Shown: in pieces, positions 208 through 15,908 of the stretch
How the letters are laid out: the number at the start of each line of letters is the position of its first letter
Numbering within the stretch: position 1 is the first letter of the stretch
NCBI GenBank assembly: GCA_018882975.1
Contig: VEQZ01000006.1
Location: 1 to 45,432 of the forward strand
Direction of reading: 5' to 3'
Source of the DNA: Rhodocyclaceae bacterium
Lineage (GTDB): Bacteria; Pseudomonadota; Gammaproteobacteria; Burkholderiales; UBA3065
DNA: 45,432 nt
Notes under the pieces: model-generated
Seen by the model: the letters and a program-made list of their open reading frames with translations, nothing else
The model's database searches: none
Told to the model about the DNA's origin: nothing
Program-made: the position numbers and the translations under genes

Positions 208-3200
208 TCACTCTTCCGGTCGGGCCAAAACGCAGGAGCTTTTCAAAAGTCCGCTTGTATCGTGGGCGAGTATCCGTTTCACAGACACGCCATAGTAACC
301 CGACTCCGCGAACTTACACCAAAGATCGTGATGCTCGAGCCCGCCAAAAGATGAGTAACCACCGACAACGAGCAGTGTAGCTTTCTTGATCAACGCCATC
401 CCGCTTATAAAATCACCCTTTTTTAGCAATTCTCGGGACCATTCAACTGCACCCGATAAAAAGGGTGGAGGTCCGGCATGATGGACGAATGGGTATGCAA
501 AGGCGGCTCGTGATTTCAGAAGGGCGGAAAGACACTGTTCCAGGCACTCTGGTTCGATGGTCCCGGAATTTTCAATAGGGAATATAAAATCCGCATTGCT
601 GAGGTAAATTCCCGCATTGAGTGCAGGAATAGAGGGCTTTTTTACTGCAGTGTTCACCAGTAGCAGCCGCGCGAAGCGGGGGCTATTCTCGTTCGCCCAA
701 GACGCTACCTTTTTGCTATGCAAAAGGTCACTCGGGTCGATAATCACGATAAGTTCAATGTCAAAAAGCGATTGTCGCTGTACCGATTCCAACGTCTCCA
801 GCAAATCGCCTTCGAGGCCGCGGGCGGTAACCAATACGGACACCTGCGGTACCCGCATTGTTTCGTGAGCTAAAACAAGATCAAACGTGGGCACCGTCAT
901 CGGATCAATGTTTAAGCTCTGTGTCGGGTGGGCTTGGCTGTCTTCGTCTCCTTTGAGCAACTTCGTCTCAATTTCTTCAATGAAAGTTTTAGCTTGACGA
1001 ATCAGCGCGTCCGGGCCGTAATAGGCAACAGAAGTATTGAACGCTGACCGTCCGAGTCGTTTCCGCAGCGAGTCGTCCAAAACCAGTTTTTCCAAACAGT
1101 CGTACCACTCCTCCTCGCGCTCCGCCAAAAATCCATTAATACCATGTCGAATCGCGCCCGAAAAAGGTACTGTTGGCGATGCGACAGTGGGCACGCCAAC
1201 GATTGCCGATTCGAAGAATTTCAATTCGCTCTTCGCTTGGCAGTAAGAGTTTGCAACCTCGAGTGGGGCCAAATTGATGTCGAATCTGGAATATTCTAGG
1301 GGAAGTAACGGCTGAGGCACCACATTTCTCCATTCCACTCGGTGCCTCAACTCGGCAAGTTCCGGGTACTCCTCAAGACTCACCACAGCGTCAGAATAAT
1401 AGGGTGCTCGTTCCAACAAGGTATCGCTTCGAAACATGACCAAGCGAACCCTCGCGTATTTAGTTAGAATTTTCGCGATTGCACGGGCGGCAACCGCAAA
1501 ATCTTTTTGGTGGGAGCGAGTTCCCGCGGCGTAACCGATCCTCAACAAGCCCTGTGATTGCGAGTTTTCGCGTTGTTTAGCTGCGCGTTTTGATAAATCA
1601 AAAAAAAGGGAAGAATAGCCGTTTCGCAGGACGAAAACTCGTTTGGAGACTTTCCGCAAAGCCTCAGCCAAAGGGCCCGTTGTGCAGGTACAAAGATCCG
1701 CCACCGCAGCACAGTCCCTCATAGATTGGAAATATTCCATTATGTGCTGTCTTTCCCACGCTTGGGATCTCATAAAGTCGAGTTTTTCCGGCTCCGCGAG
1801 GGAAGGGTCAACGATGAGGTCGTCGATATCAAGCGCGACAATGCAGCGCTTTGTCCGGGCGAGTCGCAACAACTCTGCAACCGCGGCTGTGTGGGCCACA
1901 CGCCACAGTATCAGAACGTCACAATTTGTTGCCTCGTGTCGATAAGTAATGGCATCGGATAAATCAAAGATTTTGGTAATTATTCCAAGCGCCGACATCG
2001 CCTCAGCGTAGTTTTCTATTCTGTATTGGGCGCTGGCCCCGCGGCGTTCTCCGGCGACAAAGGACACATTGGATACGCGCCGCTGAAAGGCTCTTTGGGG
2101 GGCTAGTTCGCCCAGTGAGCGGCGACCGTCTGGGGGTGTGTCCGCAGATCGCGAGGGCGGAACTGGCGCGGGCTGTGTTCGGTAGTCCGGGGGCTCGGTC
2201 TGGACGTCCAATGCAGCAATCTGCTCGGGGGCCGATGCGCGTGGACTGAGGTTCGGCATGGCATCCGCTTCAACGCCCGCAAGCCATGGTCTCGCCAGAA
2301 GTTTTCGGGAGGCCCTTTGCGCGTTGCGCGCGATACGTTGTTGGTCGCGGAGGTTTAGTTTGCCGCTTGCGAGGAGTTGCAGACAGGCATCGAGGGTCTC
2401 CTGGTAGTGGCCGCTCCAGTAGGCGTTTACCGCAAACTCATCGCGTAGGCCGGTCTCATATATCCAGGGCTCGCCGAACAGGCAGCCTTCCGGATAGGTT
2501 GTTTTTAGCCCCATCCGAGCGAACTCGTAGCCCTGGTCGTACAGCTTTTTGGATCGGCAGAATCGGCTGGCACCATGTAGTGCCTCGAGCCGCGAGTCGC
2601 TCGCCGCAATGGCTGCACGATAGGCTTCAAGGACTTCGTTTGTCGGAGATTTCGTACGTTCCTTGAGCCGGGCGATCTGGTAGAGGCTATAGAACACCTC
2701 GTCTTCTTTGCCACCCTGCTCTTTGCGGTCCAAGTAGAATCGAATGGCTTCTTCGGCCTGCCCATTGGCTCCCAGGGTTTGCGCCAGGTAAAACGTGTAG
2801 CGCGAGCGCAAAAAGGGGTCTCGTTCTGTTTCAAGGGCGCGTCGCAAAATGGCGATGTCGCTTTCCAAGGTATTGGAGGTACGACGGCGCTTGCCGTCAT
2901 GGCCGCGGTGCATGGCGAGGCTAAGCGTTCCGGCGGTGTATGGCTCGCGCGTATCGATGAACTCGTGCAAAACGCCGCGGTAAAACCATTCGAGACGGTT
3001 GCTCACCAACTGCTTGCGACGATAGAGCAGCGGCGGATCGACGATATCGATGCTGTAGGCATCGAGTTGTAACGGCGGCATGACGAAGCTGTCGGGAATC
3101 TCGAGCGTGTCGTCTGCATCGATGATCAGCGAGTAATCCGCGCAAGGCCGTGCCAGCGCAAGGGCCTCAGTACGGTTGTGCGCAAAGTCGCGCCATTTTC

Positions 3201-3390
3201 GTCGGACAAGTTTGCCGGGTACACCCCTGAGGTGTTTGCGGATGACCGCCTGAGTGCCATCGGTTGAGCCGGTATCGACGATGATCCAGTGGTCGATGAT
3301 CGGCAGCACGCTGTCGAGGCAGCGCCGGATCACAGGCGCCTCATCCTTGACGATCATGCATAGACAAATGGTCTGGCTAGTTCGGTTCAT
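208..3390 (-). CDS. Multimodular glycosyltransferase GT2-helical repeat-GT4-GT2
   Basis: This 1060-residue protein carries several glycosyl transfer modules and probably builds or extends a surface glycan at the cytoplasmic side. Residues 1-150 form a GT2 (GT-A) domain, with the nucleotide-binding start CLCMIVKDEAPVIRRCLDS and the metal-binding DADD at 91-94. Residues about 165-365 look like TPR-type helical repeats (for example FYLAQTLGANGQAEEAIRFY). After a proline-rich linker, residues about 440-812 form a GT4-like GT-B domain with DIDDLIVDP, LLRIGYAAGT and FDINLAPLEV. Residues about 847-1055 resemble a second GT2 domain, but it lacks an obvious DXD. The GT4 part is related to the C-terminal module of the protein at 11993-14098. 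G+C is visibly lower towards the C-terminal end than in the core genes to the right. Donor and acceptor sugars cannot be told. Confidence 0.85.
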   Translation of the reverse strand: MNRTSQTICLCMIVKDEAPVIRRCLDSVLPIIDHWIIVDTGSTDGTQAVIRKHLRGVPGKLVRRKWRDFAHNRTEALALARPCADYSLIIDADDTLEIPDSFVMPPLQLDAYSIDIVDPPLLYRRKQLVSNRLEWFYRGVLHEFIDTREPYTAGTLSLAMHRGHDGKRRRTSNTLESDIAILRRALETERDPFLRSRYTFYLAQTLGANGQAEEAIRFYLDRKEQGGKEDEVFYSLYQIARLKERTKSPTNEVLEAYRAAIAASDSRLEALHGASRFCRSKKLYDQGYEFARMGLKTTYPEGCLFGEPWIYETGLRDEFAVNAYWSGHYQETLDACLQLLASGKLNLRDQQRIARNAQRASRKLLARPWLAGVEADAMPNLSPRASAPEQIAALDVQTEPPDYRTQPAPVPPSRSADTPPDGRRSLGELAPQRAFQRRVSNVSFVAGERRGASAQYRIENYAEAMSALGIITKIFDLSDAITYRHEATNCDVLILWRVAHTAAVAELLRLARTKRCIVALDIDDLIVDPSLAEPEKLDFMRSQAWERQHIMEYFQSMRDCAAVADLCTCTTGPLAEALRKVSKRVFVLRNGYSSLFFDLSKRAAKQRENSQSQGLLRIGYAAGTRSHQKDFAVAARAIAKILTKYARVRLVMFRSDTLLERAPYYSDAVVSLEEYPELAELRHRVEWRNVVPQPLLPLEYSRFDINLAPLEVANSYCQAKSELKFFESAIVGVPTVASPTVPFSGAIRHGINGFLAEREEEWYDCLEKLVLDDSLRKRLGRSAFNTSVAYYGPDALIRQAKTFIEEIETKLLKGDEDSQAHPTQSLNIDPMTVPTFDLVLAHETMRVPQVSVLVTARGLEGDLLETLESVQRQSLFDIELIVIIDPSDLLHSKKVASWANENSPRFARLLLVNTAVKKPSIPALNAGIYLSNADFIFPIENSGTIEPECLEQCLSALLKSRAAFAYPFVHHAGPPPFLSGAVEWSRELLKKGDFISGMALIKKATLLVVGGYSSFGGLEHHDLWCKFAESGYYGVSVKRILAHDTSGLLKSSCVLARPEE

Positions 3391-3809
3391 GGGAAATTTT
3401 CTGACGAGGGGCGGGGTGATGCGCGATTTCGGCGTCGAAACCCTGTTGTCCTTGCGGGTCAGCCGCGCCGCCGAGCATCACCGCCGCCGAATGCGAACCT
3501 CGAACCCGACGGAGCGCGCGGTACAGCAGGAGCACAAACGTTGTACAGTCAATAGGGGCCTTTTTGAGCGAGGAATCTCTCCTGCGTCTCACCAGCATCA
3601 TCCTCGTCGAGATCGACGAGAAATCGGCATCGGACACGAGGGCCTGCTCAAGTGGGAATGCCAGAATGCATGACCTGGTCTCGGAAAAATTTCCAGACAT
3701 CGGGTTTCTAATTCCATTTTCAGCCAACAGCTGCCGCCCGAGCCCTCAGGCCGCCACCAAGTTTTGAATACAGCTCGAGCGCGTGCGCATGTGAATTGAG
3801 GTTCGGAAA
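3391..3809. other. Gap between divergent glycan genes
   Basis: These 419 bases separate the reverse-strand multimodular glycosyltransferase from the forward NKWYS-type gene. I see no convincing gene: the open frames on both strands resemble no family and lack good starts. Both promoters should lie here. A GAGG ribosome-binding element sits 8 bases before the ATG at 3810. Base composition drops from GC-rich to AT-rich towards the right, which suggests the edge of a transferred segment. Confidence 0.4.
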
Positions 3810-4595
3810 ATGAAATCAGACGACTTTCTTGAACTCGATTACCTGGTGTTTAGTTCTCATAAGACGATGACGCAGTCTATCAAGGGGACGTTGAACCGAA
3901 GCGGCTTTAATTGCGTACATGCGCACCACCTTAAAAATATAGCGTTAGATGATGAGAAATTTAGAACATTTTGTTTGGATTATTGCTTAAAAAACAAAAG
4001 AAAATTAAAAATTATTAGCGTATTTAGGGAGCCGATGGAACGGATGATTTCGTCTTTTTTCCAATCACTGTCGGTAGACAAATTCGGGCGAACTCAATCG
4101 GCGGGAAAAATCTCACTTAGAGGGCTGACAGATGAACAAGCGATGGAGCATAGCATACTGTTTACGGAAAGCTTTGACACCATTCAGCAGAGATTTTGGT
4201 ACTATTGCGCCGTCAGAGATGGATTTGGAGAATCGATTGAAGAATTGATGAGGGTATTTGATGTCCAATATAGTGAAATATCATTTCATACATCCAATCC
4301 TTTCTCTAGGAATCAATTTGAGTGCTTCGATCTATATCTCTCCCGTTTTGACCTGCTCAAAGAAGCATTTCTGCCTTCACTTGAGCACCTCACAGGTACG
4401 AACCTAATAGAGTCTTCACGGAACCTTTCGGACAAAAAATGGTACTCAAGCAAATATGACGAATTTCGCAGCAGAGTCCGAGTGCCTAGTATTTTTCTCA
4501 CAAATATGTATGAATCTAGAAAACTGTTGGGTGAGGTTTTTTACGATGACTACGCGGCTTTGCTGAAAAGAAGCCTCGTGAACTTCGGTTTGTAG
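3810..4595 (+). CDS. NKWYS-type putative capsular polysaccharide protein (sulfotransferase-like)
   Basis: This 261-residue protein resembles the putative capsular polysaccharide synthesis (NKWYS) family, which is sulfotransferase-like. The N-terminus has FSSHKTMTQSIKGTL (14-28), placed like a 5'-phosphosulfate loop. ISVFREPMERMISSFF (69-84) resembles the 3'-phosphate motif R-(E/D)-P-x-x-R-x-x-S of PAPS-dependent sulfotransferases. KKWYS at 209-213 matches the family signature. The gene is clearly AT-rich compared with its neighbours and uses many AT-ending codons, which suggests recent horizontal transfer. It stands alone on the forward strand between reverse-strand genes. The exact substrate, and whether it really transfers sulfate, are not known. 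Confidence 0.65.
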   Translation: MKSDDFLELDYLVFSSHKTMTQSIKGTLNRSGFNCVHAHHLKNIALDDEKFRTFCLDYCLKNKRKLKIISVFREPMERMISSFFQSLSVDKFGRTQSAGKISLRGLTDEQAMEHSILFTESFDTIQQRFWYYCAVRDGFGESIEELMRVFDVQYSEISFHTSNPFSRNQFECFDLYLSRFDLLKEAFLPSLEHLTGTNLIESSRNLSDKKWYSSKYDEFRSRVRVPSIFLTNMYESRKLLGEVFYDDYAALLKRSLVNFGL

Positions 4596-4971
4596 GCAGC
4601 GCACGGAAAGATTGTAATTCACGATGGTTCTGTTCTGTTTTCAAGTGGGAACCTGAGGCAGCGCATAGGTGAGGAAGTGGGCGGGTGAGAGCGCATCGCC
4701 TTCACGCTCGATCATGCAACGCGAACCGAGTTCGCTCGGGAGTTTTCAGGCTGCGGCGGCGCGGGGAGCGCGGCTTTGCTTCCGGTTCGGTACTGTCCAG
4801 AGTTTTGCGTCCATTTGAATTGGGCTGAGCGGGACTCATTCAGGGCTCAGGCAGTTGCTTCGTAGTGATCGCGCTGCAGTTCCATCGATAGATAGCGTTG
4901 CATCGGCCATGCGCTACAAGGACATTTCAACGAGAATTTTCCATTTCCAACTTGCGCATTCGACTGGGGAG
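4596..4971. other. Gap with possible insertion-sequence relic
   Basis: No intact gene is present in these 376 bases. On the reverse strand, about 4910 to 4847 reads MQRYLSMELQRDHYEATA and then a TGA stop, which could be the C-terminal end of a transposase. Just beyond it, at about 4791-4813, is a sequence reading TACTGTCCAGAGTTTTGCG that could be an insertion-sequence end. The family cannot be named, and the remnant is too short to be certain. Confidence 0.3.
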
Positions 4972-5817
4972 CTAGGCCTGTTCGAAAAGAGCCTCGACGG
5001 ACTTACGGTCATAGACTTTCCAGCATGGTGAATCCCTATCCAAAAGTCGTCTTGCGATATCTTTCGCTTTTGGGTCATGTCTTATAAATAGAGTATTTCG
5101 AGATGTTAGTGGTTCATCGAGTTGGCGACCGACGGGATCTAGCATCGATAGCGCGCTGCCACGCGTGCGGATGATATCTTCATAACGCAAGACGCTGCGA
5201 GGAATACAGTCGAGATATCTAGCAAAACAGTAATCAAGCCAGATGAACTGCCGTTCCAGCGTGTCGTCCTCTGCCGATAGTGCTGCGGCGAGCGAGGTGT
5301 CGTACATTTCGGCGGCCGGAACTCTCCCCTCGGCAACCGGCACGCTGGAACTACGCCAAGAAAGCAAAACTGCTAGTGGGTTGCGGACGATCGCATGGCA
5401 CTGGTAGCCTTCTACAAGCACTGGCAAGGCTGCAGTGAAGATTGCCGGGTGTTTGATGAACATCCTGAAGGTTGGAGCCGTGACATTGTCGACACGGATC
5501 TCCTTACCGTCAGACAGGCTCTTCCGAACGCCCGATTTGTCTGGATCGCCGATACTGTTAGTGGGAACCCGACCAACCGTTGACTTGCTGGTGGCCTTGC
5601 AATCGCGCCTGACGATCGCGCGTTGCTCATCAAAGAAATGCCCAATCTTGGCAATTAGGTCCGCTGGAGCCAATCCAACCAGTGCGCGTGGGTCAATCGG
5701 CTCGTGAAGGGCGACACAGTTTGGCAGTTTGTTCAAGAGGTGGCAGGTCAGCGTCGTTCCAGATCGGGCCAAGCCAGTCAATAAAATGTTGTCAGGGTCC
5801 GCTTCCGTCGCCCTCAT
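4972..5817 (-). CDS. Sulfotransferase family protein
   Basis: This 281-residue protein has the layout of a cytosolic PAPS-dependent sulfotransferase. ILLTGLARSGTTLTCHLLN (11-29) contains the 5'-phosphosulfate-binding loop LARSGTT. HAIVRNPLAVLLSWRSS (141-157) gives the Arg and Ser of the 3'-phosphate-binding motif. HEPIDPR (38-44) follows the first loop, as is common in the family. The ATG overlaps the stop of the upstream glycosyltransferase by four bases (ATGA at 5817-5814), so the two are translationally coupled and probably act on the same glycan. The acceptor is unknown. Confidence 0.75.
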   Translation of the reverse strand: MRATEADPDNILLTGLARSGTTLTCHLLNKLPNCVALHEPIDPRALVGLAPADLIAKIGHFFDEQRAIVRRDCKATSKSTVGRVPTNSIGDPDKSGVRKSLSDGKEIRVDNVTAPTFRMFIKHPAIFTAALPVLVEGYQCHAIVRNPLAVLLSWRSSSVPVAEGRVPAAEMYDTSLAAALSAEDDTLERQFIWLDYCFARYLDCIPRSVLRYEDIIRTRGSALSMLDPVGRQLDEPLTSRNTLFIRHDPKAKDIARRLLDRDSPCWKVYDRKSVEALFEQA

Positions 5818-6728
5818 GCCGCCTCCCGCAATATCCGCTGATACACGGCGCGCTCTACGCCAATATCGAAACCCTCGCTGACCGACAGTGCCCGATTACG
5901 CAGTCCTTCTGCAAGTTCGGGTGAACTCCTGATTCGCGCTATCGCCGCCTCGATCGCTGCGGCATCAAATCCGGTTACCAGCGCAGTCACCTCATTTATG
6001 CAAAAGCCTCTATTGCCGATGCAGTCGGGGCAGATGACGACAGTTCCCATCGCCATTGCCTCCAAGGCGGGCATGTAGAAACCCTCTTCCTCATACGGCA
6101 ACAGGACAGCCACCTTCGCATTCGACATACGGGTGAGAAAAGTTGACCGCGGCAGTGCCATGATTGCGCAGTCGACCGAGAGCCCGGCAAGCGCCAGCCG
6201 AACTGCCACTTCCTTCGCGAGGTCGGGTCTCTTGTTGCCGCTTACGAAAACATCCACAGGTCGGTCCACCCTAAACTTCGGTAGGAGTGTTCGATTGATG
6301 CAGTTCGGGCTGACATGGATTGGGCCGTTGCAGATGCCAGTTGCGCAAAGAGCATCGGCGACCTCACTGCTCACACAAATCCTGGTTGCCCGCCGCCGCA
6401 GGAACCGGTAAAGCGGGTGGGTGGGTGAGGCATGTCGCATACCCTGAATCAAGTTGATCACTGGAATCCGTTCCTCAATGCCTGGATACGGATCAAGCGC
6501 CTGCCAATCAAGCCCGGCAATGAATAAGCCATCGGCCTCCATTGGCATGTAACGTCGAACCAGACCGGCCTCGGTTTCCCAAGGGTGACCGAGCTGACTG
6601 TCCGGCGTCAAATAGATTTCGGCGCGGTATCCAGGGGTAGACTGCGTGTGCCGAAAGTAATCGAAAACCTTCAAATGACCACCTGTTAACCGCTGATAGT
6701 TTCGGTGGAATAAGATTTTTTTAATCAC
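5814..6728 (-). CDS. Glycosyltransferase family 4 (GT-B) protein
   Basis: The protein begins KKILFHRNYQRLTGGHLKVF, a usual start for GT-B enzymes. It ends with a donor-binding half containing LLPYEEEGFYMPALEAMAMG (about 220-240), the E-x7-E-type nucleotide-sugar motif. I place the start at GTG 6728 because AAGG lies six bases upstream and the family-like sequence begins there. The frame stays open to an ATG at 6791, but that stretch overlaps an IS3-family remnant on the other strand. The start gives 304 residues, somewhat short for GT4. The gene precedes and overlaps the sulfotransferase gene, forming a two-gene glycosyl transfer and sulfation unit. The IS debris immediately upstream may have removed its native promoter. 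Confidence 0.75.
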   Translation of the reverse strand: MIKKILFHRNYQRLTGGHLKVFDYFRHTQSTPGYRAEIYLTPDSQLGHPWETEAGLVRRYMPMEADGLFIAGLDWQALDPYPGIEERIPVINLIQGMRHASPTHPLYRFLRRRATRICVSSEVADALCATGICNGPIHVSPNCINRTLLPKFRVDRPVDVFVSGNKRPDLAKEVAVRLALAGLSVDCAIMALPRSTFLTRMSNAKVAVLLPYEEEGFYMPALEAMAMGTVVICPDCIGNRGFCINEVTALVTGFDAAAIEAAIARIRSSPELAEGLRNRALSVSEGFDIGVERAVYQRILREAA

Positions 6729-6744
6729 AGCTGGCCTTGCGCAA

Positions 6745-7107
6745 AGCACTGGTAGCAAATTCCGCATCGTGACGGTCGAGCATGTGTTCACCCGCGAGGC
6801 TTTGGCGGTGCATGCCGGCCATCGGCTCTGGGTCGAGCATGTGATTGACGTTCTAAATCGGCTGGTTCGCCATCATGGGGCGCCCAAGGCGATCTTCGCG
6901 GACAACGGCAGCGAGTTCACTGGGCGACTGGCTATGGGAGCCTATCACCATGACGTTCGGCTCGACTTCAGCCGGCCAGGCAAGCCCACAGACAACAGCG
7001 TCGTCGAGACTTTCAACGGTTCGTTGCGCGACGAGTGCTCGAACGTCCACTGGTTCGCGTCCTTGGCCGAGGCGAAGGGGCTTCTCGAGGCCTAGCGCCG
7101 GGACAAC
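6745..7107 (+). pseudogene. IS3-family transposase (OrfB integrase core) fragment
   Basis: The reading SKFRIVTVEHVFTREALAV, followed by IFADNGSEFTG and VVETFNGSLRDEC, is the C-terminal part of the rve integrase domain of an IS3-family OrfB. The second Asp (in DNGSEF) and the Glu (in VVETFNG) of the DDE triad are visible. The first Asp and everything N-terminal are missing. A TAG at 7093-7095 replaces the Trp expected in the usual EAWRRDYN context. Family similarity fades right after RRDN. No terminal inverted repeats were found, so the element is dead. It lies head to head with the glycosyltransferase ending at 5814 and converges on the sulfotransferase at 7163-7954. Confidence 0.8.
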
Positions 7108-7162
7108 ACGCCTACCACCGACCGTGATTTGGCAATCATGAGTTGTGACACAGTAAAAGTAG

Positions 7163-7954
7163 TCAGCCGTAGAGAAAACGGTCGAGGATCCGGTGGTACT
7201 CGGTGTGGCGGTCAGCCCGGAGACGGTCGAGTTCTGCATCGACGTCGAACGCAGCGTCGGGGAGTCGGCCAATTGGACGGCGGAAGACGCGGTCGATGCC
7301 GTGCCGGTCGAGCAGGGCGAGGTCGTCGGCGTAGACGCGCTCGATCGTGCGGACGAGATCGGGCTCGAGGAGGAAATCGGCGAGTGGCGTGCCGGCGGCG
7401 TTTTCTCGATTCAACTGCACGGCGGCCGAGGGGGCGAGATCGGGTCGCAACGCTGCGACGATCGCCGGCAGTTCGTCTAGCCGGCTCGTGGGAAGGACCA
7501 GATCGAAAGCGGCGATGTCAGGAACAGTTAGCGACTGCGGTCGCCAGTGGATGTTCTCCCCGCGAAGGAAGCCGGCATCGGCGGCGAGTGTCTCGACGAA
7601 CCGCCGAAAGCCGGAGCGGATTTCGGTGAGGGATTCAAGGCGCGGATACCAGGGGGCGCGGAGGTAGCGAAAGATCCACTCGCCGACCGGGCTGGCGAGT
7701 ATCTTGCTTGCGTAGACCGAGACGACGCGGTCGACCGGATGCCGCAGTGTAGTGACGCGGAGCGTGCCGGGTGGCGCCGCTGCAATGCAGGACAGGTGGA
7801 GGCCGTTGCGAGGCGTGGCGGGCTGGCGGGGCGCTGCGAGCGAGCGCTCCACCTCGTTGGCCCACCGGGTGAGCGACGTGCAGCCCGCCTTCGGCACCCG
7901 GGCAAGCGCCAGCCGCGCGAGGGGAAAATATCGGTACGGAGTGTACCCGTTCAT
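7163..7954 (-). CDS. Sulfotransferase family 2-like protein
   Basis: This 263-residue protein has ALARVPKAGCTSLTRWANE (16-34), where PKAGCTS matches the 5'-phosphosulfate loop PKxGxTS of the carbohydrate sulfotransferase branch. RVTTLRHPVDRVVSVYASK (66-84) matches the 3'-phosphate motif RHPxxRxxSxY. These enzymes normally move sulfate from PAPS to a sugar. The ATG at 7954 has GGAG eight bases upstream. The gene is GC-rich, unlike the NKWYS gene. It is flanked on one side by an IS3 remnant and on the other by a decayed gene, so it may have arrived as a separate piece. The acceptor is unknown. Confidence 0.75.
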   Translation of the reverse strand: MNGYTPYRYFPLARLALARVPKAGCTSLTRWANEVERSLAAPRQPATPRNGLHLSCIAAAPPGTLRVTTLRHPVDRVVSVYASKILASPVGEWIFRYLRAPWYPRLESLTEIRSGFRRFVETLAADAGFLRGENIHWRPQSLTVPDIAAFDLVLPTSRLDELPAIVAALRPDLAPSAAVQLNRENAAGTPLADFLLEPDLVRTIERVYADDLALLDRHGIDRVFRRPIGRLPDAAFDVDAELDRLRADRHTEYHRILDRFLYG

Positions 7955-8229
7955 CGGCTCGGCTCCCCTTCGCCCGTCAGACGGTGCAACGTTTTGTGGT
8001 CGCTCTTGCCGATGCCGAGGTTCCGGACCGACGGTATTTCTTGCAATTCATCAAGCCGCGTTTCGCCGCAGTGGCCGTCGTCTTGACCGATTTCTGATGA
8101 GGTTAAAACAACGCGGGACCACGTCTTGACAGCATCGAGTGGCCAGCGTTTCTGAGATGGAGGCTAGCACAGGCTGCCATCGTCGGCTGGGCGCTGCGTA
8201 CCCACTCAGTCGCCGGCGAGCATCCGTGG
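7955..8229. other. Decayed or non-coding stretch upstream of a pseudogene
   Basis: No intact gene is present. One forward frame reads RFVVALADAEVPDRRYFLQF, then FIKPRFAAVAVVLTDF, before a TGA at 8096-8098. This looks coding but has no ATG in frame nearby. It may be the N-terminal part of the frameshifted gene that follows. Confidence 0.3.
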
Positions 8230-8792
8230 CACCATCGAGACCTTGCTTGCCGGGCTATCCGACGACGACTGGGTGTATTTGGTGCATCGACGACAAATAT
8301 GCGATCCGGCTTGGCCTGCCTCGGATCGAATCGATCGTCGCAGCCCTTGCCGACGGAGGCCCCGAGGACCTGAGCGGGGTGCTCTTCTGCCGCGCCCGGC
8401 GGATGCTGGAAGGAGGGCTTCTTGAGGGCAGCCGGAACATGCTTGGAGGCGAAGTCCTTCTCGAGCGCGCCGGCTACCACCAGATCTGGATTCACCAGTT
8501 CATCCGGGTCAAGGTCCTCCGCCATTTGTTTGCCGCGATGCCCGGGGCGCTCGATCCGGCTCGATCCATGGACGCGCTCAAGCATCGGGTTTCAAAACCT
8601 GTTACCACCGCCTGTGGGTGACCGAAACCAACCTTTCGATCTTCGGCGAGAGCATGGTGAGCGGTGTGATCACCGACAATTGCCGAGCAAGCATGCAGGC
8701 CCACGGTATACCGCTTCCCGCAGGGCAACCGGCAGAGCCCGCCCGCCCGCAAGATCATCATCGGGTCCATGCCGTTGGCGTCATCGTCATGA
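8230..8792 (+). pseudogene. Frameshifted conserved-looking gene of unknown family
   Basis: Coding signal continues across this stretch only by moving between all three forward frames. The first frame reads GTIETLLAGLSDDDWVYLV to about 8280. The next reads IDDKYAIRLGLPRIESIVAA, then ERAGYHQIWIHQFIRVKVL, to about 8590. A third reads FKTCYHRLWVTETNLSIFGE, then MVSGVITDNCRASMQAHG, to about 8715. The last reads ARKIIIGSMPLASSS and stops at 8790-8792. Such a chain is typical of a gene broken by at least three indels. I do not recognise the family. The position among glycosyl- and sulfotransferase genes suggests a former glycan enzyme, which is only inference. Sequencing error is an alternative to decay. 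Confidence 0.5.
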
Positions 8793-9040
8793 CGACCTGT
8801 GTACGGCGGATGCGAACACTGGAGGGCGCCGAGCGGTGCGGCTTTCGAATTTCTGTAGCTCCTGGAGGCTACAGATTCGGATTACATTGCAGCACATACC
8901 ACCTGTTAGCGTGGCCGATCTCGAGGCAGTTTGCGTTTCCGGGGCGCCCCGCCTGACTGGCCGCGAAAGCCAATGCCAGCCGCTGCCATGCGGGTAGTGG
9001 CCGGCACCGATAGACGAGGCCGACTCCATGGTGCATCGCT
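8793..9040. other. Intergenic region with 8-bp hairpin
   Basis: No gene was seen. TCTGTAGC at 8852-8859 and GCTACAGA at 8868-8875 form a perfect 8-bp inverted repeat with an 8-base loop. There is no T-run, so it is not a standard terminator. The promoter of the methyltransferase gene should be here, but no clear -35/-10 pair stands out. Confidence 0.4.
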
Positions 9041-10012
9041 GTGATGAATGACTGGAAATCCCTGATTCAAAGGCGGATCGCCAACGGTACTGTCGGCGTG
9101 GAAATCGGTCCGTTCTGCAACCCCCTTGCTCCAAAAAAGGAGGGTTACCAAACTGTCGTCGTGGATATCAAGAGCCGAGAGGACCTACATCTGGGTGCTC
9201 GGGTAAAGGGCGAGTCTGACCAGAGAATCGCAGCAATCGAAGACGTCGATGTGGTGGGCGACGCGTCCGACCTTGCTTGCCTCCTTCGCTCTCACGGCCG
9301 GACGGGGCCATTCAACTGGATCATCAGCTCTCACAACTTCGAGCATCTTCGGAATCCCTTGCGTTTTCTGCAGGATTGCGAGGGTCTTCTTGGCGAGAAC
9401 GGCCTCTTGATGATGGTCATACCCGATCATCGTTTTACTTTTGACCGATTCCACCCTCACACAATTACAGCGGATGTGATCCGGGCGTCCGCCGTGCCGC
9501 ACGACCCGGCTGCCGATGCGTGGGACTGCTTCCGGGGAGCCAGCCAGAAATGTCAGCTACAACTTGGCGAAGGGCCTCGAAGGCTCTGTTGGAGCGAAGC
9601 GCTGCACAGCGATCAGGCCTTGGTGATGCCGCAAAGCCTGGCCCGCCAATATCTCGTCTTGCAGGAACAGCTCGCCTCCGACCAATTCAGCTTCGCAGGA
9701 CATCGGTGGCACCTCACGCCTGCAGTCCTAGAGTTGCTGCTCTTCGATTTGGCCCACTTGCAGCTGATCGGCCTCCGGGCTTCGAAGATTCATTCCACCC
9801 GGAACTGTGACTTCCTGGCGATTATCGAGAAACGCCCGGCTGAGCCGCTGTCTGAGGCTGCCGCTTCGGCACGCCGGCATGCCCTCTGCTGCCTGATAGA
9901 GAACGAGCGGGCGGCCATCTCATCGCTTGCCCAGGAACAGGCTCGCCGTCTCGCTGCCCAGGAGCGGGAACTGCAGGAGCTGCGATCCCGGCTTGCGCCC
10001 GGGGACGCATGA
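9041..10012 (+). CDS. SAM-dependent methyltransferase with coiled-coil tail
   Basis: This 323-residue protein has a class I methyltransferase fold. VGVEIGPFCNPL (18-29) is the SAM-binding glycine motif. VVVDIKS (39-45) carries the acidic residue for ribose binding. DVVGDAS (70-76) and ISSHNFEHL (95-103) correspond to later motifs, and ENGLLMMVIPDHRFTFDRF follows, as in many glycan-cluster methyltransferases. Residues about 275-320 are rich in Ala, Glu, Arg and Gln and look like a coiled coil. The frame starts GTG-ATG, so the true start may be the ATG at 9044. It leads a forward run with the two sulfotransferase fusion genes and may cap or methylate the same glycan. The target is unknown. Confidence 0.75.
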   Translation: MMNDWKSLIQRRIANGTVGVEIGPFCNPLAPKKEGYQTVVVDIKSREDLHLGARVKGESDQRIAAIEDVDVVGDASDLACLLRSHGRTGPFNWIISSHNFEHLRNPLRFLQDCEGLLGENGLLMMVIPDHRFTFDRFHPHTITADVIRASAVPHDPAADAWDCFRGASQKCQLQLGEGPRRLCWSEALHSDQALVMPQSLARQYLVLQEQLASDQFSFAGHRWHLTPAVLELLLFDLAHLQLIGLRASKIHSTRNCDFLAIIEKRPAEPLSEAAASARRHALCCLIENERAAISSLAQEQARRLAAQERELQELRSRLAPGDA

Positions 10013-10156
10013 GTCCTGCGTTCACCGCTCCCCCTGCAGAATCATTGAAGCCCGTGGCGAAGACCCAGAACCCATCTGGCTACGCTCAAACGTCTTCGGG
10101 GAGGCCACTTGTCATTACGCGGGCTTTCCCGACGTTCCCTTGGAGGGTCACAACCG

Positions 10157-11983
10157 ATGGTCGATTTTCTAGGAATCGGCGTGCAGAAAGGAGGCACCAC
10201 GTGGCTGTTCCACCAACTCGCCCGTCATCCCCAGATCGCTTTTCCCGCCGGCAAGGAAGTCCATTTCTGGGACCGCGTGGACGGCAGTCTCGTCAAGCAG
10301 TGGCTTGAGATCCTTGAGCCCCCGTCGCGCAGCAATACAGCCGGGCAACCAATCCGCACCGGCGAGATCACCCCCGCCTACGCATCGCTTCCCACCGAGA
10401 CGATCCGTGCGATCCACGCGGCCTGTCCGGATATCCGCCTGTTCATAAGTTTCCGCAACCCGCTCGAGCGAGCCTGGTCCGCGGCGCGGATGGCGATGGT
10501 GCGGGCGCAGATGCTCGACTCGGAGGTGTCGGATCAGTGGTTCATCGACCATTTCCAATCGGCGGCCTCGAGGAGTGCTGGCGACTACTCGGCGATCATG
10601 GAGCGATGGCTGGCGGTCTTCCCGGAGGAGCAACTGCTCACCCTGCTCTGCGACGACATCGAGGATTGCCCCACTCGAATCCTTGATGCCATTTCCGAGC
10701 ATCTCGGCATCAATCCGAAGGGTTTCGCGGGACTTTCCGCGGCCGCTCTGGCGGAGCGCGTCGTGCCCCTGCTTACGGCCGATCAGGCCTACAAAAGGAA
10801 GCCGGATCTTCCGCCACGGCCCACGCTCGTGCCCGTGCTCAAGGACATGTACGCACCCGAGGTTGCGAGGATTGCCAGGTTCCTCGGCCGCGACCTGACT
10901 CACTGGGTAGACGGCTTCGGTGTCCCCGCCGCCTACAAGCGCCAGCCGCGTCGTGAGATCCGCATCGGCGCCAAGGGTGCCATGGCGGTCGACGCGTGGC
11001 TCGCCAAGGGGGGCACGCCCGCCGCGCCTCCCGCAACCCCCAGTGATGACGGCGCCCCGGGAGTCAACGCCCGCAGGACACGACCCGCGCTGTCGGTGAT
11101 CGCCGTCTTTCGCGACATGGCCCGAGAAGCGCCGCGGACGCTGTTTACCCTCTCACCGGGGTATCAACTCGGCGTCGATCCCTGGCGCTACGAGGTGATC
11201 GTCGTCGATGCCGGGTCGACGGTACCCCTCGACAGCGACGTCGTCGCCTCGTTCGGGCCCGGATTCACGCTTCTGCGCACGCCACCATCTCCCTCGCCCT
11301 CGGCGGCCATCAACGAGGCGGTGCGCCTTTCGACGGGCGAAGCGGTGATGATCTGCATCGACGGCGCAAGGATGCTCACGCCGGGGGTGGTGCGGCTCAC
11401 GCTCGATGCCTTCCGGACCTGGCCCGATCCCGTCGTGGCCACGCTGGCTTGGCACCTCGGCCCCAAGATCCAGAACGAATCGATGCTCGAGGGCTACGAC
11501 CAGGCCGTCGAGGATCGGCTCCTCGAGTCGGTCGACTGGCGGCGCGACGGCTATGAACTCTTCCGCATCGCCGCGTATGCCGGGTCAAGCAAGAAGGGAT
11601 GGTTCCTTCCCACATCCGAGAGCAACGCCGTGGCCGTGCGGCGGGAGACGTTCGATCGCCTCGGCGGTTTCGACGAGGGGTTCCAGACGCCCGGCGGAGG
11701 GCTCGTGAACCTCGACTTCCACCGCCGCGCCTGTGCCGCCGCGAGCCCCGTCATCCATCTCCTCGGCGAAGGGACCTTCCACCAGTTCCACGGCGGCGTG
11801 GCGACGAACGTGCCCCAGGCGCTCCATCCGTTCCAGACGTTCCATGAAGAATACAAGCGCCTCCGTGGCGAAGCTTTCTCGCCCCCGACCGCCATGCCCT
11901 TGGTGCTCGGAGGAATGCCGTGGCAGGCACTGCCATTCCTCGAGGCGTCGATTGCAGAGGCCCGTGCAGCCCATGAGGGATGA
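10157..11983 (+). CDS. Sulfotransferase-GT2 fusion protein
   Basis: This 608-residue protein joins two catalytic modules. Residues 1-260 are a sulfotransferase domain: FLGIGVQKGGTTWLFHQLA (4-22) holds the 5'-phosphosulfate loop, FPAGKEVHFWD (29-39) is the typical following motif, and LFISFRNPLERAWSAARMA (95-113) is the 3'-phosphate motif. After an Ala/Pro-rich linker (about 285-305), residues 308-600 form a GT2-like domain with ALSVIAVFRDMAREA, EVIVVDAGS (346-354) and ICIDGARML (399-407), where the usual DXD is IDGA. I chose ATG 10157 because GGAGGG lies just upstream and the conserved domain begins there. The frame also stays open to 10109. Only nine bases separate it from the next fusion gene, so they are likely co-transcribed. 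Confidence 0.8.
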   Translation: MVDFLGIGVQKGGTTWLFHQLARHPQIAFPAGKEVHFWDRVDGSLVKQWLEILEPPSRSNTAGQPIRTGEITPAYASLPTETIRAIHAACPDIRLFISFRNPLERAWSAARMAMVRAQMLDSEVSDQWFIDHFQSAASRSAGDYSAIMERWLAVFPEEQLLTLLCDDIEDCPTRILDAISEHLGINPKGFAGLSAAALAERVVPLLTADQAYKRKPDLPPRPTLVPVLKDMYAPEVARIARFLGRDLTHWVDGFGVPAAYKRQPRREIRIGAKGAMAVDAWLAKGGTPAAPPATPSDDGAPGVNARRTRPALSVIAVFRDMAREAPRTLFTLSPGYQLGVDPWRYEVIVVDAGSTVPLDSDVVASFGPGFTLLRTPPSPSPSAAINEAVRLSTGEAVMICIDGARMLTPGVVRLTLDAFRTWPDPVVATLAWHLGPKIQNESMLEGYDQAVEDRLLESVDWRRDGYELFRIAAYAGSSKKGWFLPTSESNAVAVRRETFDRLGGFDEGFQTPGGGLVNLDFHRRACAAASPVIHLLGEGTFHQFHGGVATNVPQALHPFQTFHEEYKRLRGEAFSPPTAMPLVLGGMPWQALPFLEASIAEARAAHEG

Positions 11984-11992
11984 GCAGGCTCC

Positions 11993-14098
11993 ATGAACCG
12001 ACGTGCGATCCTGATTCTCGGGATGCATCGTAGCGGCACCTCTGCGCTGGCGAGGGTCGTCGGCCATCTTGGCGCGAGCCTCCCGCTCGCCCCGATGCCG
12101 GAGACAGCCGACAACCCCTCTGGGTACTGGGAGTCTAGGCCGATCGCCCGCTTCAACACCCGGCTTCTAGAATCGGCCGGGACACGCTGGAACGACGATG
12201 GCCCCGTGACGGACGCCTGGTTTGCCGACGCTGCACGGCGCACGGATGTCTACGAGGCGGTGGAACTTCTGGCCGCCGAGTTTGGCGAGGTGCCTCTGTT
12301 GGTCCTCAAGGATCCGCGGATCTGCCGGCTGCTTCCGTTCTGGCGCGAAGTGCTGGCACGGGCAGGAATCGATGCCTGCGCCGTCCTCTCGCTCCGCGAC
12401 CCATGGGAGGTGGCCCGGTCCCTTCAGGCACGGCTGGCCGATACGGCGTTCCGCCCTGCGGCGATCGCCGCCCCCGAGCGCGGGCTGCTCCTTTGGCTAC
12501 GCCATGTATTGGATGCCGAGGCACGGTCGCGCGACATGCCCCGGACAGTGATCCACTATAAATCCCTCGTTGCCGATTGGCGCTCGGCGGTGCGCGAACT
12601 TCTCGACCTCGCGTCCCTGCCACCGGTTTCGGCCGAGGCGGCTGCCGCGGTCGAGCAATTCCTCACACCGGAACTCCGCCGGCAGCGCGACACTGATGCC
12701 GTTGACCAACGGTTGGCTCTCTCCGTCGAGGTCCTGCGAGCGATCGCCAAGGATGTACAGCAGGCCTCAATGAGTGCCTGCAGGGCGGAGCCGACACGTC
12801 GTCGGCTCGACACGATTGCACGGTCATTGGACCGCCTCGTTTTTGCCTACGCGCCGCTCCGTCAAGGGCCTGAGGCGACGACACCCGCAGACCCTTGGGC
12901 TGGAGCGATCCTCGCGGAGATCGGCCGTACACCGCAGCGCGCCGCCGCGCCGCCAAACCGGCGTCGGGCACTGTTCCTGTCGGGTGCCCCGTTGAGCGCG
13001 GGGCACGTCTACCGGGTGGAGCATGCGGTGGCCGCCCTCACCGTGCGGGGCTGGAAAACTTCCGTATTACCGCTTGACGACAGCGGCGTGGCTGAGGCGC
13101 TCAAGGCAGCCGATCTGGTCATGGTATTTCGCGCCAAGTGGGGTGAGCAGATGGCCCGCGTCCGCGAACGGGCGAGTGCCCGCAGGATTCCCCTAGCCTA
13201 CGACATCGACGACCTCGTCTTCGATCCAGCCGTGATGGCCACGGGGCAGATTGCCTTCATCGCAGGATTGCCCGAGACGCAGCGGCAGCGCTGGTTCGAC
13301 GACGCGGCCCTCTACCGCCGGGCTATCGCCGCGAGCGACGCCTGCATCGTGACCACGCCGGCCCTGGCCGCCGCAGTCGGTGGAATCGGCCCAGATGTCC
13401 ATCTCCTGCCCAACGGGCTGGGTACGAAAATGCTTGCCGCAGCAGAACAGTCCAGAGGCCTGCCGAAACCGTCGTCCTTGGATGGCCTCCTCCGAGTCGG
13501 CTTCGCCAGCGGCACGCCGACCCACCACCGCGATTTCGCAACGATCGCCCGCCCATTGGCCGACCTGCTTGCGCGCCGCGAGGACGTCCGACTCGTGATC
13601 GTCGGGCATCTCGATGTCGGAGCGGTACCGGAGCTCGCCGGTCACCTCGGGCGGATCGAGGTCCGCCCTGCGGTGTCACTCCTCGAGGTCTTCACTGAGG
13701 TGGCGCGGTTCGACATCAACCTCGCTCCCCTCGAAGTCGGCAATCCGTTCTGTGAGGCGAAGAGCCCGATCCGCTGCTTCACGGCGGCGGTCGTCGGGGT
13801 TCCGAGCATCGTGGCGGCGACCGGGCCACTTGTGGCCGCCGTGATCGACGCGGAGACCGGAACGGTCGCCCGCTCGGCCGAGGATTGGACGATGGCTATC
13901 GACAGCCTCCTCGACGACTCCGGGCGCCGCGAGCGGATGGGAGAAGCCGCGCGAATCGATGTGATCGCCCGCTCGGGGCCCGAGGCCATCGTCGAGCAGA
14001 CCGAGGGGGTTTACACGGGGATTCTCGCCTATTGGGCGCCGAAATCCTGGCCCAGCTCAGGCACTCCGCTTGGCGCACAGCGCGTTCGCTGCCGGTGA
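11993..14098 (+). CDS. Sulfotransferase-GT4 fusion protein
   Basis: This 701-residue protein begins with a sulfotransferase-like domain: ILILGMHRSGTSALARVVG (6-24) holds the 5'-phosphosulfate loop, NPSGYWESRPIARFN (41-55) follows, and AVLSLRDPWEVARSLQARL (130-148) is the 3'-phosphate motif. Residues about 320-685 are a GT4-like GT-B domain with LAYDIDDLVFDP (401-412), LLRVGFASGTPTHHRDF (499-515) and RFDINLAPLEVGNPFCEAKS (572-591). This second half is related to the GT4 part of the 1060-residue protein at 208-3390. Coupling of glycosyl transfer and sulfation on one chain is the natural inference, but the substrate is unknown. The last residues are low in similarity and reach close to the next small gene. 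Confidence 0.8.
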   Translation: MNRRAILILGMHRSGTSALARVVGHLGASLPLAPMPETADNPSGYWESRPIARFNTRLLESAGTRWNDDGPVTDAWFADAARRTDVYEAVELLAAEFGEVPLLVLKDPRICRLLPFWREVLARAGIDACAVLSLRDPWEVARSLQARLADTAFRPAAIAAPERGLLLWLRHVLDAEARSRDMPRTVIHYKSLVADWRSAVRELLDLASLPPVSAEAAAAVEQFLTPELRRQRDTDAVDQRLALSVEVLRAIAKDVQQASMSACRAEPTRRRLDTIARSLDRLVFAYAPLRQGPEATTPADPWAGAILAEIGRTPQRAAAPPNRRRALFLSGAPLSAGHVYRVEHAVAALTVRGWKTSVLPLDDSGVAEALKAADLVMVFRAKWGEQMARVRERASARRIPLAYDIDDLVFDPAVMATGQIAFIAGLPETQRQRWFDDAALYRRAIAASDACIVTTPALAAAVGGIGPDVHLLPNGLGTKMLAAAEQSRGLPKPSSLDGLLRVGFASGTPTHHRDFATIARPLADLLARREDVRLVIVGHLDVGAVPELAGHLGRIEVRPAVSLLEVFTEVARFDINLAPLEVGNPFCEAKSPIRCFTAAVVGVPSIVAATGPLVAAVIDAETGTVARSAEDWTMAIDSLLDDSGRRERMGEAARIDVIARSGPEAIVEQTEGVYTGILAYWAPKSWPSSGTPLGAQRVRCR

Positions 14099-14159
14099 TC
14101 ATACTTTCGGGGTCGCCCCAACCCTTCGATCCGGGGGCGGCGCTGCATATCTGGCGTGG

Positions 14160-14615
14160 ATGGAGAAGCCGGTGAGGGATGTTGCCAACCTGGTCACGGC
14201 CATTTCGCTGGCGGCCCAGTGCCGCGATTTGCCGGTCGATGCCTTGATGCCGGGCGATGGCCACGCGCGCCCGGTGCCGTCAGCTCATTCGGCGATGGCG
14301 TTGTCAGCCAAGGAGGGCGCATTCTGGTCGGAGTCGGTCGAGGCGATGCGGCACCGCCTGCGCTCCTACCTCGATGCGGTCGCCGGTTATGCACAACTCA
14401 TCGAGATGGAGCCCGACGATGCCACCCGCCAGGTCGGCGCCATCCGTGCCAAGGTCGACAAGATCTTCGGCGTGATTAACCGATACGTCTGGCAGTTTCG
14501 CAATCTGCTGGACCGCGAGCTGACCACGAAGTCCATGCCCACCGTGGCCCGCAGGTGGCCGCCGGGCTGCGGAGCGTGTCAAGTCAGCCCTGCAACCTCG
14601 CCGTCATCCGGCTAG
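14160..14615 (+). CDS. Small protein with HisKA-like H-box and no kinase domain
   Basis: This 151-residue protein contains RHRLRSYLDAVAGYAQLIE (64-82), close to the phospho-acceptor helix of histidine kinases (HELRTPLxAIxGYxxL), with the candidate phospho-His at residue 65. The acidic residue that normally follows the His is Arg. A second helix, about residues 90-118, follows as in a dimerisation domain. No ATP-binding N, G1 or G2 box is present. It could be an orphan phosphotransfer domain, a kinase remnant, or chance similarity in a helical protein. ATG 14160 is the first good start after the upstream gene, but no strong ribosome-binding site is visible. The frame is open back to 14070. Confidence 0.5.
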   Translation: MEKPVRDVANLVTAISLAAQCRDLPVDALMPGDGHARPVPSAHSAMALSAKEGAFWSESVEAMRHRLRSYLDAVAGYAQLIEMEPDDATRQVGAIRAKVDKIFGVINRYVWQFRNLLDRELTTKSMPTVARRWPPGCGACQVSPATSPSSG

Positions 14616-14627
14616 AATCACGGCCTC

Positions 14628-15908
14628 ATGGCCCGCATCCTTCTCGTTCACCAGAACTTCCCCGGACAGTTCAAGCACCTCGCGCCCACCCTCGTTCGCC
14701 AAGGTCACGAGGTGGTTGCCACGACCCTTCATAAGTCGCCCCCGGCGACGTGGAATGGGGTGCGTATGGTGCCGTATGCCATCGAGCGCGGCAGTACCCG
14801 CGGCATCCACGCCTGGGTATCCGATTTCGAGACCAAGGTCATTCGCGGCGAAGCGTTCTTCCGCAAGGCTCTTGAGTTGCGCGCCAAGGGGTACCAACCG
14901 GACTTGGTGATCGCCCATCACGGCTGGGGCGAGACGCTTTTCGTCAAGGACGTCTGGCCGCAGGCACGGCTCGCCATCTACTGCGAGTTCTACTACAAGC
15001 AGGAGGGCGCGGACAGTGGCTTCGACCCCGAATTCCCCAGTCGCGACATCGGTGACGTCTGCCGTCTGCGGCTCAAGAACCTCAACAACCTCTTGCATTT
15101 CAATCAGGCCGACGCCGGAATCTCGCCCACCGAGTGGCAGGCCAGCACCTTCCCGGAACCGTTCCGCTCGCGCATCAGCGTGATTCACGACGGCATCGAC
15201 ACTTTGGGCGTGTGCCCCGACCCTGCGGCCAGCGTGCGTTTGCCAGCCCACGGCATCGCCATGCCCGGGGTCGAAGCGCCAGCGCGCCAGTTGTCGCTGA
15301 GCCGCGAGGACGAGGTCATCACCTTCGTCAACCGCAATCTGGAGCCCTATCGCGGCTACCACACCTTCATGCGCGCCTTGCCGGCCCTGCTCAAGGCGCG
15401 CCCGCGGGCGCAGGTGGTCATCGTCGGGGGCGACGACGTGAGTTACGGCGCGCGGCCACGCGAGGGCAAGTGGAAGGACATCTTTGTCAACGAGGTGCGC
15501 GAGCGCATGACCGCGCAGCAGCGTGAGCGCGTGCATTTTGTCGGCCACCTGGCCTACCCGGGCTTTGTCAGCCTTTTGCAGGTCAGCACGGTGCACGTCT
15601 ACCTGACCTACCCCTTCGTGCTTAGCTGGTCACTGCTCGAATCCATGAGTGCGGGCTGCGCCATCGTGGCGAGCGACACGGCGCCGCTGCGCGAAGCGAT
15701 CCTCGAGGGCGAGACCGGCCGATTGGTTGATTTCTTCGATGCGCCGGCGCTTGCGCAGCGGGTTGCCGACCTCTGCGCGGACCCAGCGCAGCGGCAGCGC
15801 TTGGGCGCCGCCGCCAGAGCTTTCGCGGAAAAACACTACGACCTGCACACGGTGTGCTTGCCGCGGCAGGTCGCTTGGGTCAAGTCGCTACTGGCCGGCG
15901 GCGCCTGA
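14628..15908 (+). CDS. Glycosyltransferase family 4 protein
   Basis: This 426-residue protein starts ARILLVHQNFPGQFKHLAPT, the signature start of the GT4 subgroup with a PF12000-type N-terminal domain. Residues about 215-400 form the donor-binding Rossmann half: EVITFVNRNLEPYRGYHTF, AQVVIVGGDD, VHFVGHLAYPGFVSLLQVS, and SWSLLESMSAGCAIVASDTA with the conserved Glu. It most likely adds a sugar from a nucleotide donor to a surface glycan on the cytoplasmic side. The gene is uniformly GC-rich, like the core genes to the right, and closes the glycan island. The sugar and acceptor cannot be predicted. Confidence 0.88.
   Translation: MARILLVHQNFPGQFKHLAPTLVRQGHEVVATTLHKSPPATWNGVRMVPYAIERGSTRGIHAWVSDFETKVIRGEAFFRKALELRAKGYQPDLVIAHHGWGETLFVKDVWPQARLAIYCEFYYKQEGADSGFDPEFPSRDIGDVCRLRLKNLNNLLHFNQADAGISPTEWQASTFPEPFRSRISVIHDGIDTLGVCPDPAASVRLPAHGIAMPGVEAPARQLSLSREDEVITFVNRNLEPYRGYHTFMRALPALLKARPRAQVVIVGGDDVSYGARPREGKWKDIFVNEVRERMTAQQRERVHFVGHLAYPGFVSLLQVSTVHVYLTYPFVLSWSLLESMSAGCAIVASDTAPLREAILEGETGRLVDFFDAPALAQRVADLCADPAQRQRLGAAARAFAEKHYDLHTVCLPRQVAWVKSLLAGGA

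Follow-up and report, generated by a model that had tools for sequence, protein, structure and literature searches.

Sulfotransferase (ST) and glycosyltransferase (GT) domains are joined in single proteins in a gene island at the left end of the window, which is the whole 45,432-bp stretch of DNA that was analysed (contig C82 of G000, a 1.95-Mb draft genome, 91% complete, in 106 contigs, whose gene content suggests a member of the Pseudomonadota). The ST-GT fusion is a real and testable, yet not a unique, candidate route to sulfated sugars. The reading favoured here, with a probability of about 0.55, is that the island was acquired horizontally and is still recombining, and that its products build a short or lipid-linked glycan and sulfate it in the cytoplasm, some of the steps being tethered in one chain. 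When, and on what, bacterial glycans get sulfated is poorly known. The presence of sugar-adding and sulfate-adding domains in one chain makes the question of their coupling directly testable, and a natural control is offered by the sister species G004, where the same GT2 is unfused and adjoins the same ST-GT4 protein. The architecture is spread through Pseudomonadota, so that an answer for one fusion would bear on many uncharacterised loci.

The nine proteins of the region (P0001 to P0009) were translated and then scanned with Pfam and NCBIfam. These proteins and a transposase remnant are arranged as follows.

208 to 3390, minus strand: P0001, 1060 aa, GT2 (residues 10-96), TPR-like helical stretch, GT4 (618-770) and GT2-like domain (848-1040), by Pfam
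3810 to 4595, plus strand: P0002, 261 aa, NKWYS/sulfotransferase-like, single domain, GC3 0.45, by Pfam and motifs
4972 to 5817, minus strand: P0003, 281 aa, weakly sulfotransferase-like, single domain, by Sulfotransfer_3 (E 0.019), NoeE and motifs
5814 to 6791, minus strand: P0004, 325 aa, GT4 glycosyltransferase, by Pfam
6769 to 7141, plus strand: remnant of an rve (DDE) transposase with a broken frame, within the island (rve_3 E 3.6e-12 and rve E 2.7e-9 for 6769-7095; ORFs)
7163 to 7954, minus strand: P0005, 263 aa, Sulfotransfer_2, single domain (Pfam, 39.3 bits, cut-off 22)
9041 to 10012, plus strand: P0006, 323 aa, SAM methyltransferase, by Pfam; a similar methyltransferase opens the island of the sister species G004
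10109 to 11983, plus strand: P0007, 624 aa, sulfotransferase (about 15-210) joined to a GT2-like domain (about 328-618), by Pfam, heparan sulfate 3-O-sulfotransferases and 3rnl
11993 to 14098, plus strand: P0008, 701 aa, sulfotransferase (1-230) joined to GT4 (about 327-670), by Pfam, the G004 ortholog and a model of the ST half
14628 to 15908, plus strand: P0009, 426 aa, GT4 (Glyco_trans_4_3), a conserved chromosomal neighbour that bounds the island, to which each of the four sister genomes has an ortholog of 71-80% identity

P0007 and P0008 are the only two matches to Sulfotransfer_3 in the whole draft genome. The first-pass annotation had described P0007 as a sulfotransferase with a GT2 domain and the next protein, P0008, as a sulfotransferase with a GT4 domain, and had left the fold of their N-terminal halves to a domain search. 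Both descriptions are borne out by Pfam. In P0008 the two halves are over their cut-offs (Sulfotransfer_3 34.1 bits, cut-off 27; GT4 27.7 bits, cut-off 27). In P0007 the ST half reaches 41.4 bits, over the same Sulfotransfer_3 cut-off of 27, and the GT2 half 21.5 bits (E 2e-4), below its cut-off of 23.3. The latter half looks like a GT2 relative, as its homolog in G288 is over the cut-off at 36.3 bits. It has no canonical DxD motif (ICIDGARM stands at the usual place, and the G004 homolog is likewise without DxD), and its catalysis is therefore less certain. Among solved structures, the ST half of P0007 matches the bacterial sulfotransferase 3rnl (E 1e-11) and heparan sulfate 3-O-sulfotransferases (E 6.5e-9 and weaker), and its motif KEVHF is aligned to NEVHF of 3-OST-1, which contains the catalytic glutamate of that enzyme. 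The ST half of P0008, in a model built on an alignment of 7 rows (pLDDT mostly 75-93 at the N terminus), also matches solved sulfotransferases in Foldseek (E about 1e-5); the model is confident in this half alone and not in the GT half. The AlphaFold model of P0007 alone had a pLDDT of 36 and was left out of the evidence.

The sulfotransferases of the island are of unequal strength. P0005, P0007 and P0008, which exceed curated Pfam cut-offs, are predicted PAPS-dependent sulfotransferases. P0002 is over the cut-off as NKWYS (27.5 bits, cut-off 25.1), with a weak Sulfotransfer_1 match (13.1 bits, E 0.06) under its cut-off of 22. P0003 is under the cut-off of 27 for Sulfotransfer_3 (15.6 bits); it matches the NCBIfam NoeE (N-terminus) model with E 1e-4 over the P-loop, and no relative of it was found among solved structures. 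In simple pattern searches, a 5′-phosphosulfate-loop-like motif and a downstream R-x-P 3′-phosphate-like motif were found in all five. The earlier count of about five sulfotransferase-like domains thus stands for P0005, P0007 and P0008, and for P0002 as NKWYS, and for P0003 at the level of motifs only. It may be asked whether the ST domain of the fusions is instead catalytically silent and serves, by binding alone, to target or control the GT. The degenerate metal-binding motifs of the P0007 GT2, and the fact that no sulfated glycan is documented for the relatives in the literature searched, would fit this reading; however, the PAPS-loop motifs are kept, P0007 retains the glutamate-containing motif aligned to the 3-O-sulfotransferases, and an APS kinase adjoins two of the relatives, so that a mere binding role is very improbable.

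The island had been drawn over positions 208 to 15,908. This extent holds through about 14.5 kb; the remainder, 14628-15908, is P0009, which was rejected as an island member because it belongs to the core of the genus, being present in all five genomes, within a nuc-mfd block. As far as the sister contigs reach, the P0009 block consists of an HTH gene, nuc (thermonuclease-like), a thioesterase-like gene and mfd. On its other side, G001 and G002 have chemotaxis-like genes, G003 and G004 have Hsp20/groEL-like genes, and G000 has the ST-GT island. Since the far side of the block differs between the sister genomes, the island occupies a variable junction and ends near 14.5 kb, whereas its left border is the contig end, inside the island. 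GC climbs from 0.50 at the left, being 0.50-0.61 in the left island versus 0.65-0.72 in the flank. The low GC and the broken transposase are as expected for acquired surface-glycan DNA. At 7955-9040, about 1.1 kb of island DNA has no convincing gene; a decayed gene is possible there.

No match to Sulfotransfer_3 was found in the sister species G001, G002 or G003. The genome of G004 has an island at a different chromosomal place, which contains a P0006-like methyltransferase, a GT-D-like gene, Sulfotransfer_2, an ST-like gene, the P0008 ortholog, an Stf0-type ST and more methyltransferases, and which also encodes a 1,876-aa protein with ST, WbsX, GT2 and GT4. The P0008 ortholog covers residues 1-676 with 47% identity. 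The gene just upstream of it encodes a separate GT2, which shares 64% identity with the C-terminal half of P0007; stops in the same frame precede it, and it has no ST. As G004 has the P0008 ortholog, the P0008 fusion is common to two species. A longer rve transposase gene adjoins a second G004 locus, which encodes an ST-GT2-ST protein. Elsewhere in the order, in other families, each half of P0007 occurs as a single protein: G133 has the ST half (253 aa), with a P0009-type GT4 and a partial APS kinase nearby, and G288 has the GT2 half, with 48% identity, near flagellin-like, FlaF-like and FlbT-like genes. As a separate observation, three of the sister genomes share a conserved GT-like protein, about 955-969 aa long, whose gene is flanked by an ftsB-like gene and alaS (L023:7559-10423, L025:913-3777 and L026:8097-11003).

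A search of the 398 other genomes of the order gave no full-length match to P0007, whose ST-GT2 joint is known from a single lineage, in one MAG, only. On comparison with G004, the joint would either have arisen in this lineage or have been lost in G004. That it is an artefact of MAG assembly is suggested by this single occurrence, by the GT2 standing alone in the sister species and by the absence of a full-length match in the order; yet the joint lies in a single 1875-bp open frame with steady GC3 across it, ST fusions are frequent in the lineage and the neighbouring P0008 is independently confirmed by its G004 ortholog, which together render such an error exceedingly improbable.

A different explanation holds that the region is a degrading scrapyard of surface-glycan genes, in which the domains are real and much of the island is non-functional recombination debris. 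The mixed GC and strands, the transposase remnant, the 1.1 kb without clear gene, the lack of an exporter and the weakness of P0002 and P0003 would be consistent with decay. Conversely, the frames are long and intact, the order of GT2 followed by ST-GT4 is the same in G000 and G004 at 47-64% identity, and the ST motifs are intact in 5 of 5. Decay of this kind is unlikely, and a functional, glycan-modifying island is retained as the preferred reading.

The coupling of sulfation and glycosyl transfer by fusion had been called unusual, which is too strong. P0008 was searched against a sample of 397 Pseudomonadota genomes, and 41 matches outside G000 cover its ST part; of these, 16 lie in open frames of at least 1,000 aa. 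Ten of the 12 long frames with a P0008-type ST that were scanned also carry GT2, GT4, RgpF, WbsX, WsaF or TOD1-type domains, a count in which L157 and L164 are included on their P0008 match, as Pfam at E 0.001 lists no ST in them, and in which the ST of L154 is a weak Sulfotransfer_1. The remaining two, beside flgK, have ST only. A Planctomycetota MAG encodes ST-GT4-GT2 and a Rudaea MAG ST-GT2-GT2. Thus, by domain assignment, a predicted N-terminal ST joined to GT2, GT4, RgpF or WbsX recurs across Pseudomonadota and also in Planctomycetota. Such fusions (G004, G031, Rudaea L017, Planctomycetota L015, L153, L158-L161, L163 and L166) resemble P0007 and P0008 in having a GMHRSGTS-type ST followed by GT2, GT4, RgpF or WbsX, but most of them are larger, and many have ABC exporters or rml genes as neighbours. 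Indeed, ABC-2 permeases adjoin the ST-GT genes L154, L157, L160, L163 and L166, and L158 and L159 are flanked by rml-like genes and an APS kinase, the kinase of L159 being assigned from sequence likeness alone. On the Cereibacter plasmid pRSPH01 a P0008-type ST has ABC exporter and rfb genes close by; neither the P0007 nor the P0008 fusion was found in full length on plasmids at 80% coverage. The search for the same fusions in other genomes, which the first-pass annotation had proposed, therefore recovered the P0008 fusion in G004 and the ST-GT theme in many genomes, but no full-length P0007 in the order. No published experimental study of an ST-GT fusion was found in the literature searched, which is no proof of absence.

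Some candidates were not counted as ST-GT fusions. In the 1,059-aa "glycosyltransferase" of Paracoccus albus (L122) Pfam found no ST, though the P0008 ST aligns to its N terminus at 41%, followed by GT2 domains. The proteins beside flgK (L162 and L165) have no Pfam GT domain. These ST proteins, each about 1,170 aa long, are encoded directly after flgK and a flagellin-like gene in two congeneric genomes (L162:3852-7355 and L165:4095-7604); for their C-terminal 950 residues Pfam lists no family at E 0.001.

In the proposed mechanism, the GTs of the island would use nucleotide sugars to extend a glycan in the cytoplasm, and the STs would sulfate the same glycan with PAPS as donor. In P0007 and P0008 the tethered ST would act on a sugar that has just been added, or on the one next to it, while the glycan is still on the enzyme or in the cytoplasm. 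For the acceptor, a lipid-linked or LPS-type glycan is the more probable, as in the relatives with ABC exporters, the alternative being a protein such as flagellin. An APS kinase is encoded in G000 on another contig (C94), near ugd- and galU-like genes, and PAPS can thus probably be made.

The idea of a sulfated surface polymer is partly supported, by the APS kinase in the genome; single-chain coupling of sulfate and sugar transfer may be inferred. No self-contained pathway for such a polymer is seen: by Pfam, no polymerase, flippase, ABC exporter, sugar-nucleotide gene or PAPS gene was found in the island, inside which the contig ends, and neither Wzy_C nor a G031-type Wzm was found in the draft genome. 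Single matches to PF13440 (Polysacc_synt_3), which looks like MurJ and adjoins an rpsT-like gene, and to ABC2, which looks like a core permease and lies beside a murA-like gene, were rejected as polysaccharide exporters. Since about 9% of the genome is missing from the draft, and the island is cut by the contig end, the lack of an exporter is weak evidence against export. GTs and PAPS sulfotransferases are combined, as in the island, in the clusters for synechan (xss) of Synechocystis and for the sulfated capsule of Vibrio sp. KMM 8419 (PMC13125312, PMC11641403). The Vibrio cluster is described there as including PAPS genes, ABC export and mobile elements (PMC13125312, PMC11641403). By comparison with such sulfated EPS/capsule clusters, both of which have exporters and the Vibrio one also PAPS genes (PMC13125312, PMC11641403), the island locus has neither an exporter or polymerase nor PAPS synthesis genes. 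Term searches of the two papers returned no ST-GT fusion (PMC13125312, PMC11641403).

The absence of a standard exporter from the draft genome also bears on the acceptor, since the island could glycosylate and sulfate flagellin or another secreted protein in the cytoplasm, for which no Wzx, Wzy or ABC exporter is needed. Flagellin is present in all five members of the genus, but three sister species have it without Sulfotransfer_3, and the inspected flagellin loci of G000, G002, G003 and G004 have no adjoining ST or GT; in G000 the flagellin gene lies on the 9.2-kb contig C100. The 48% relative of the P0007 GT2 beside flagellin-like, FlaF-like and FlbT-like genes in G288 points to flagellin, as do two P0008-type ST proteins just downstream of flgK and a flagellin-like gene (G683 and G712), although the latter have no Pfam GT domain. 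The N-terminal GT2 of P0001 is closest to GmaR (E 5e-9) and SunS among solved structures, a likeness that lies mainly within the generic GT2 core. On balance a protein acceptor, the main rival to the favoured reading, is rather doubtful. A bolder form of this proposal is quite unlikely, namely that P0007 and P0008 are two-step enzymes that add and sulfate a sugar in place on a flagellin glycan within a single chain, giving sulfated flagella without a polysaccharide exporter, and that lineages shuffle ST and GT modules to change the glycan. A lipid-linked or short glycan is preferred as the product of the island.

P0001 was correctly described as GT2-helical repeat-GT4-GT2. Pfam gives 74 bits for GT2 in two stretches and 34.4 bits for GT4 (cut-off 27); the second GT2 is weak when taken alone (PF13641, 16.1 bits), and this C-terminal domain has weak matches to heparosan/chondroitin synthase structures. 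The GT4 regions of P0001 and P0008 are 32% identical. In joining a GT to a helical repeat, the N-terminal part of P0001 resembles the modular flagellin GTs FlmG of Caulobacter and GmaR of Listeria (PMC7591256, PMC9638930). No ST domain is mentioned for FlmG or GmaR in the text consulted, and flagellin is a tested substrate of FlmG (PMC7591256, PMC9638930), whereas for the island it is a guess. In G288 (L079:4837-10228), flagellin-like, FlbT-like and FlaF-like genes are directly followed by those for a 1,477-aa methyltransferase-GT2 protein and for a single GT2.

Sulfotransferases are also found in other multi-domain proteins. TPR-sulfotransferase proteins, frequent in the order sample, resemble the island fusions in carrying Sulfotransfer_3 within a larger chain but differ in having 200-650 residues ahead of the ST loop, this N-terminal part being presumably TPR. 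Most long Sulfotransfer_3 frames in the order were not counted as fusions for this reason, the loop being far from the N terminus. In G222, a 1,726-aa frame (L100:1680-6857) has two Sulfotransfer_3 loops, apparently a tandem, separated by about 1,170 residues. In the megasynthases (curacin 4gbm, olefin synthase 4gox and the NRPS L097), the ST is likewise a module of a multi-domain enzyme, but its partners are PKS or NRPS and not glycosyltransferases. The NRPS, a 2,850-aa protein of G290 (L097:2894-11446), has Sulfotransfer_3 between modules and resembles the curacin and olefin synthase STs, and a 953-aa protein of G314 (L096:3058-5919) unites AMP-binding, carrier-protein and Sulfotransfer_3 domains.
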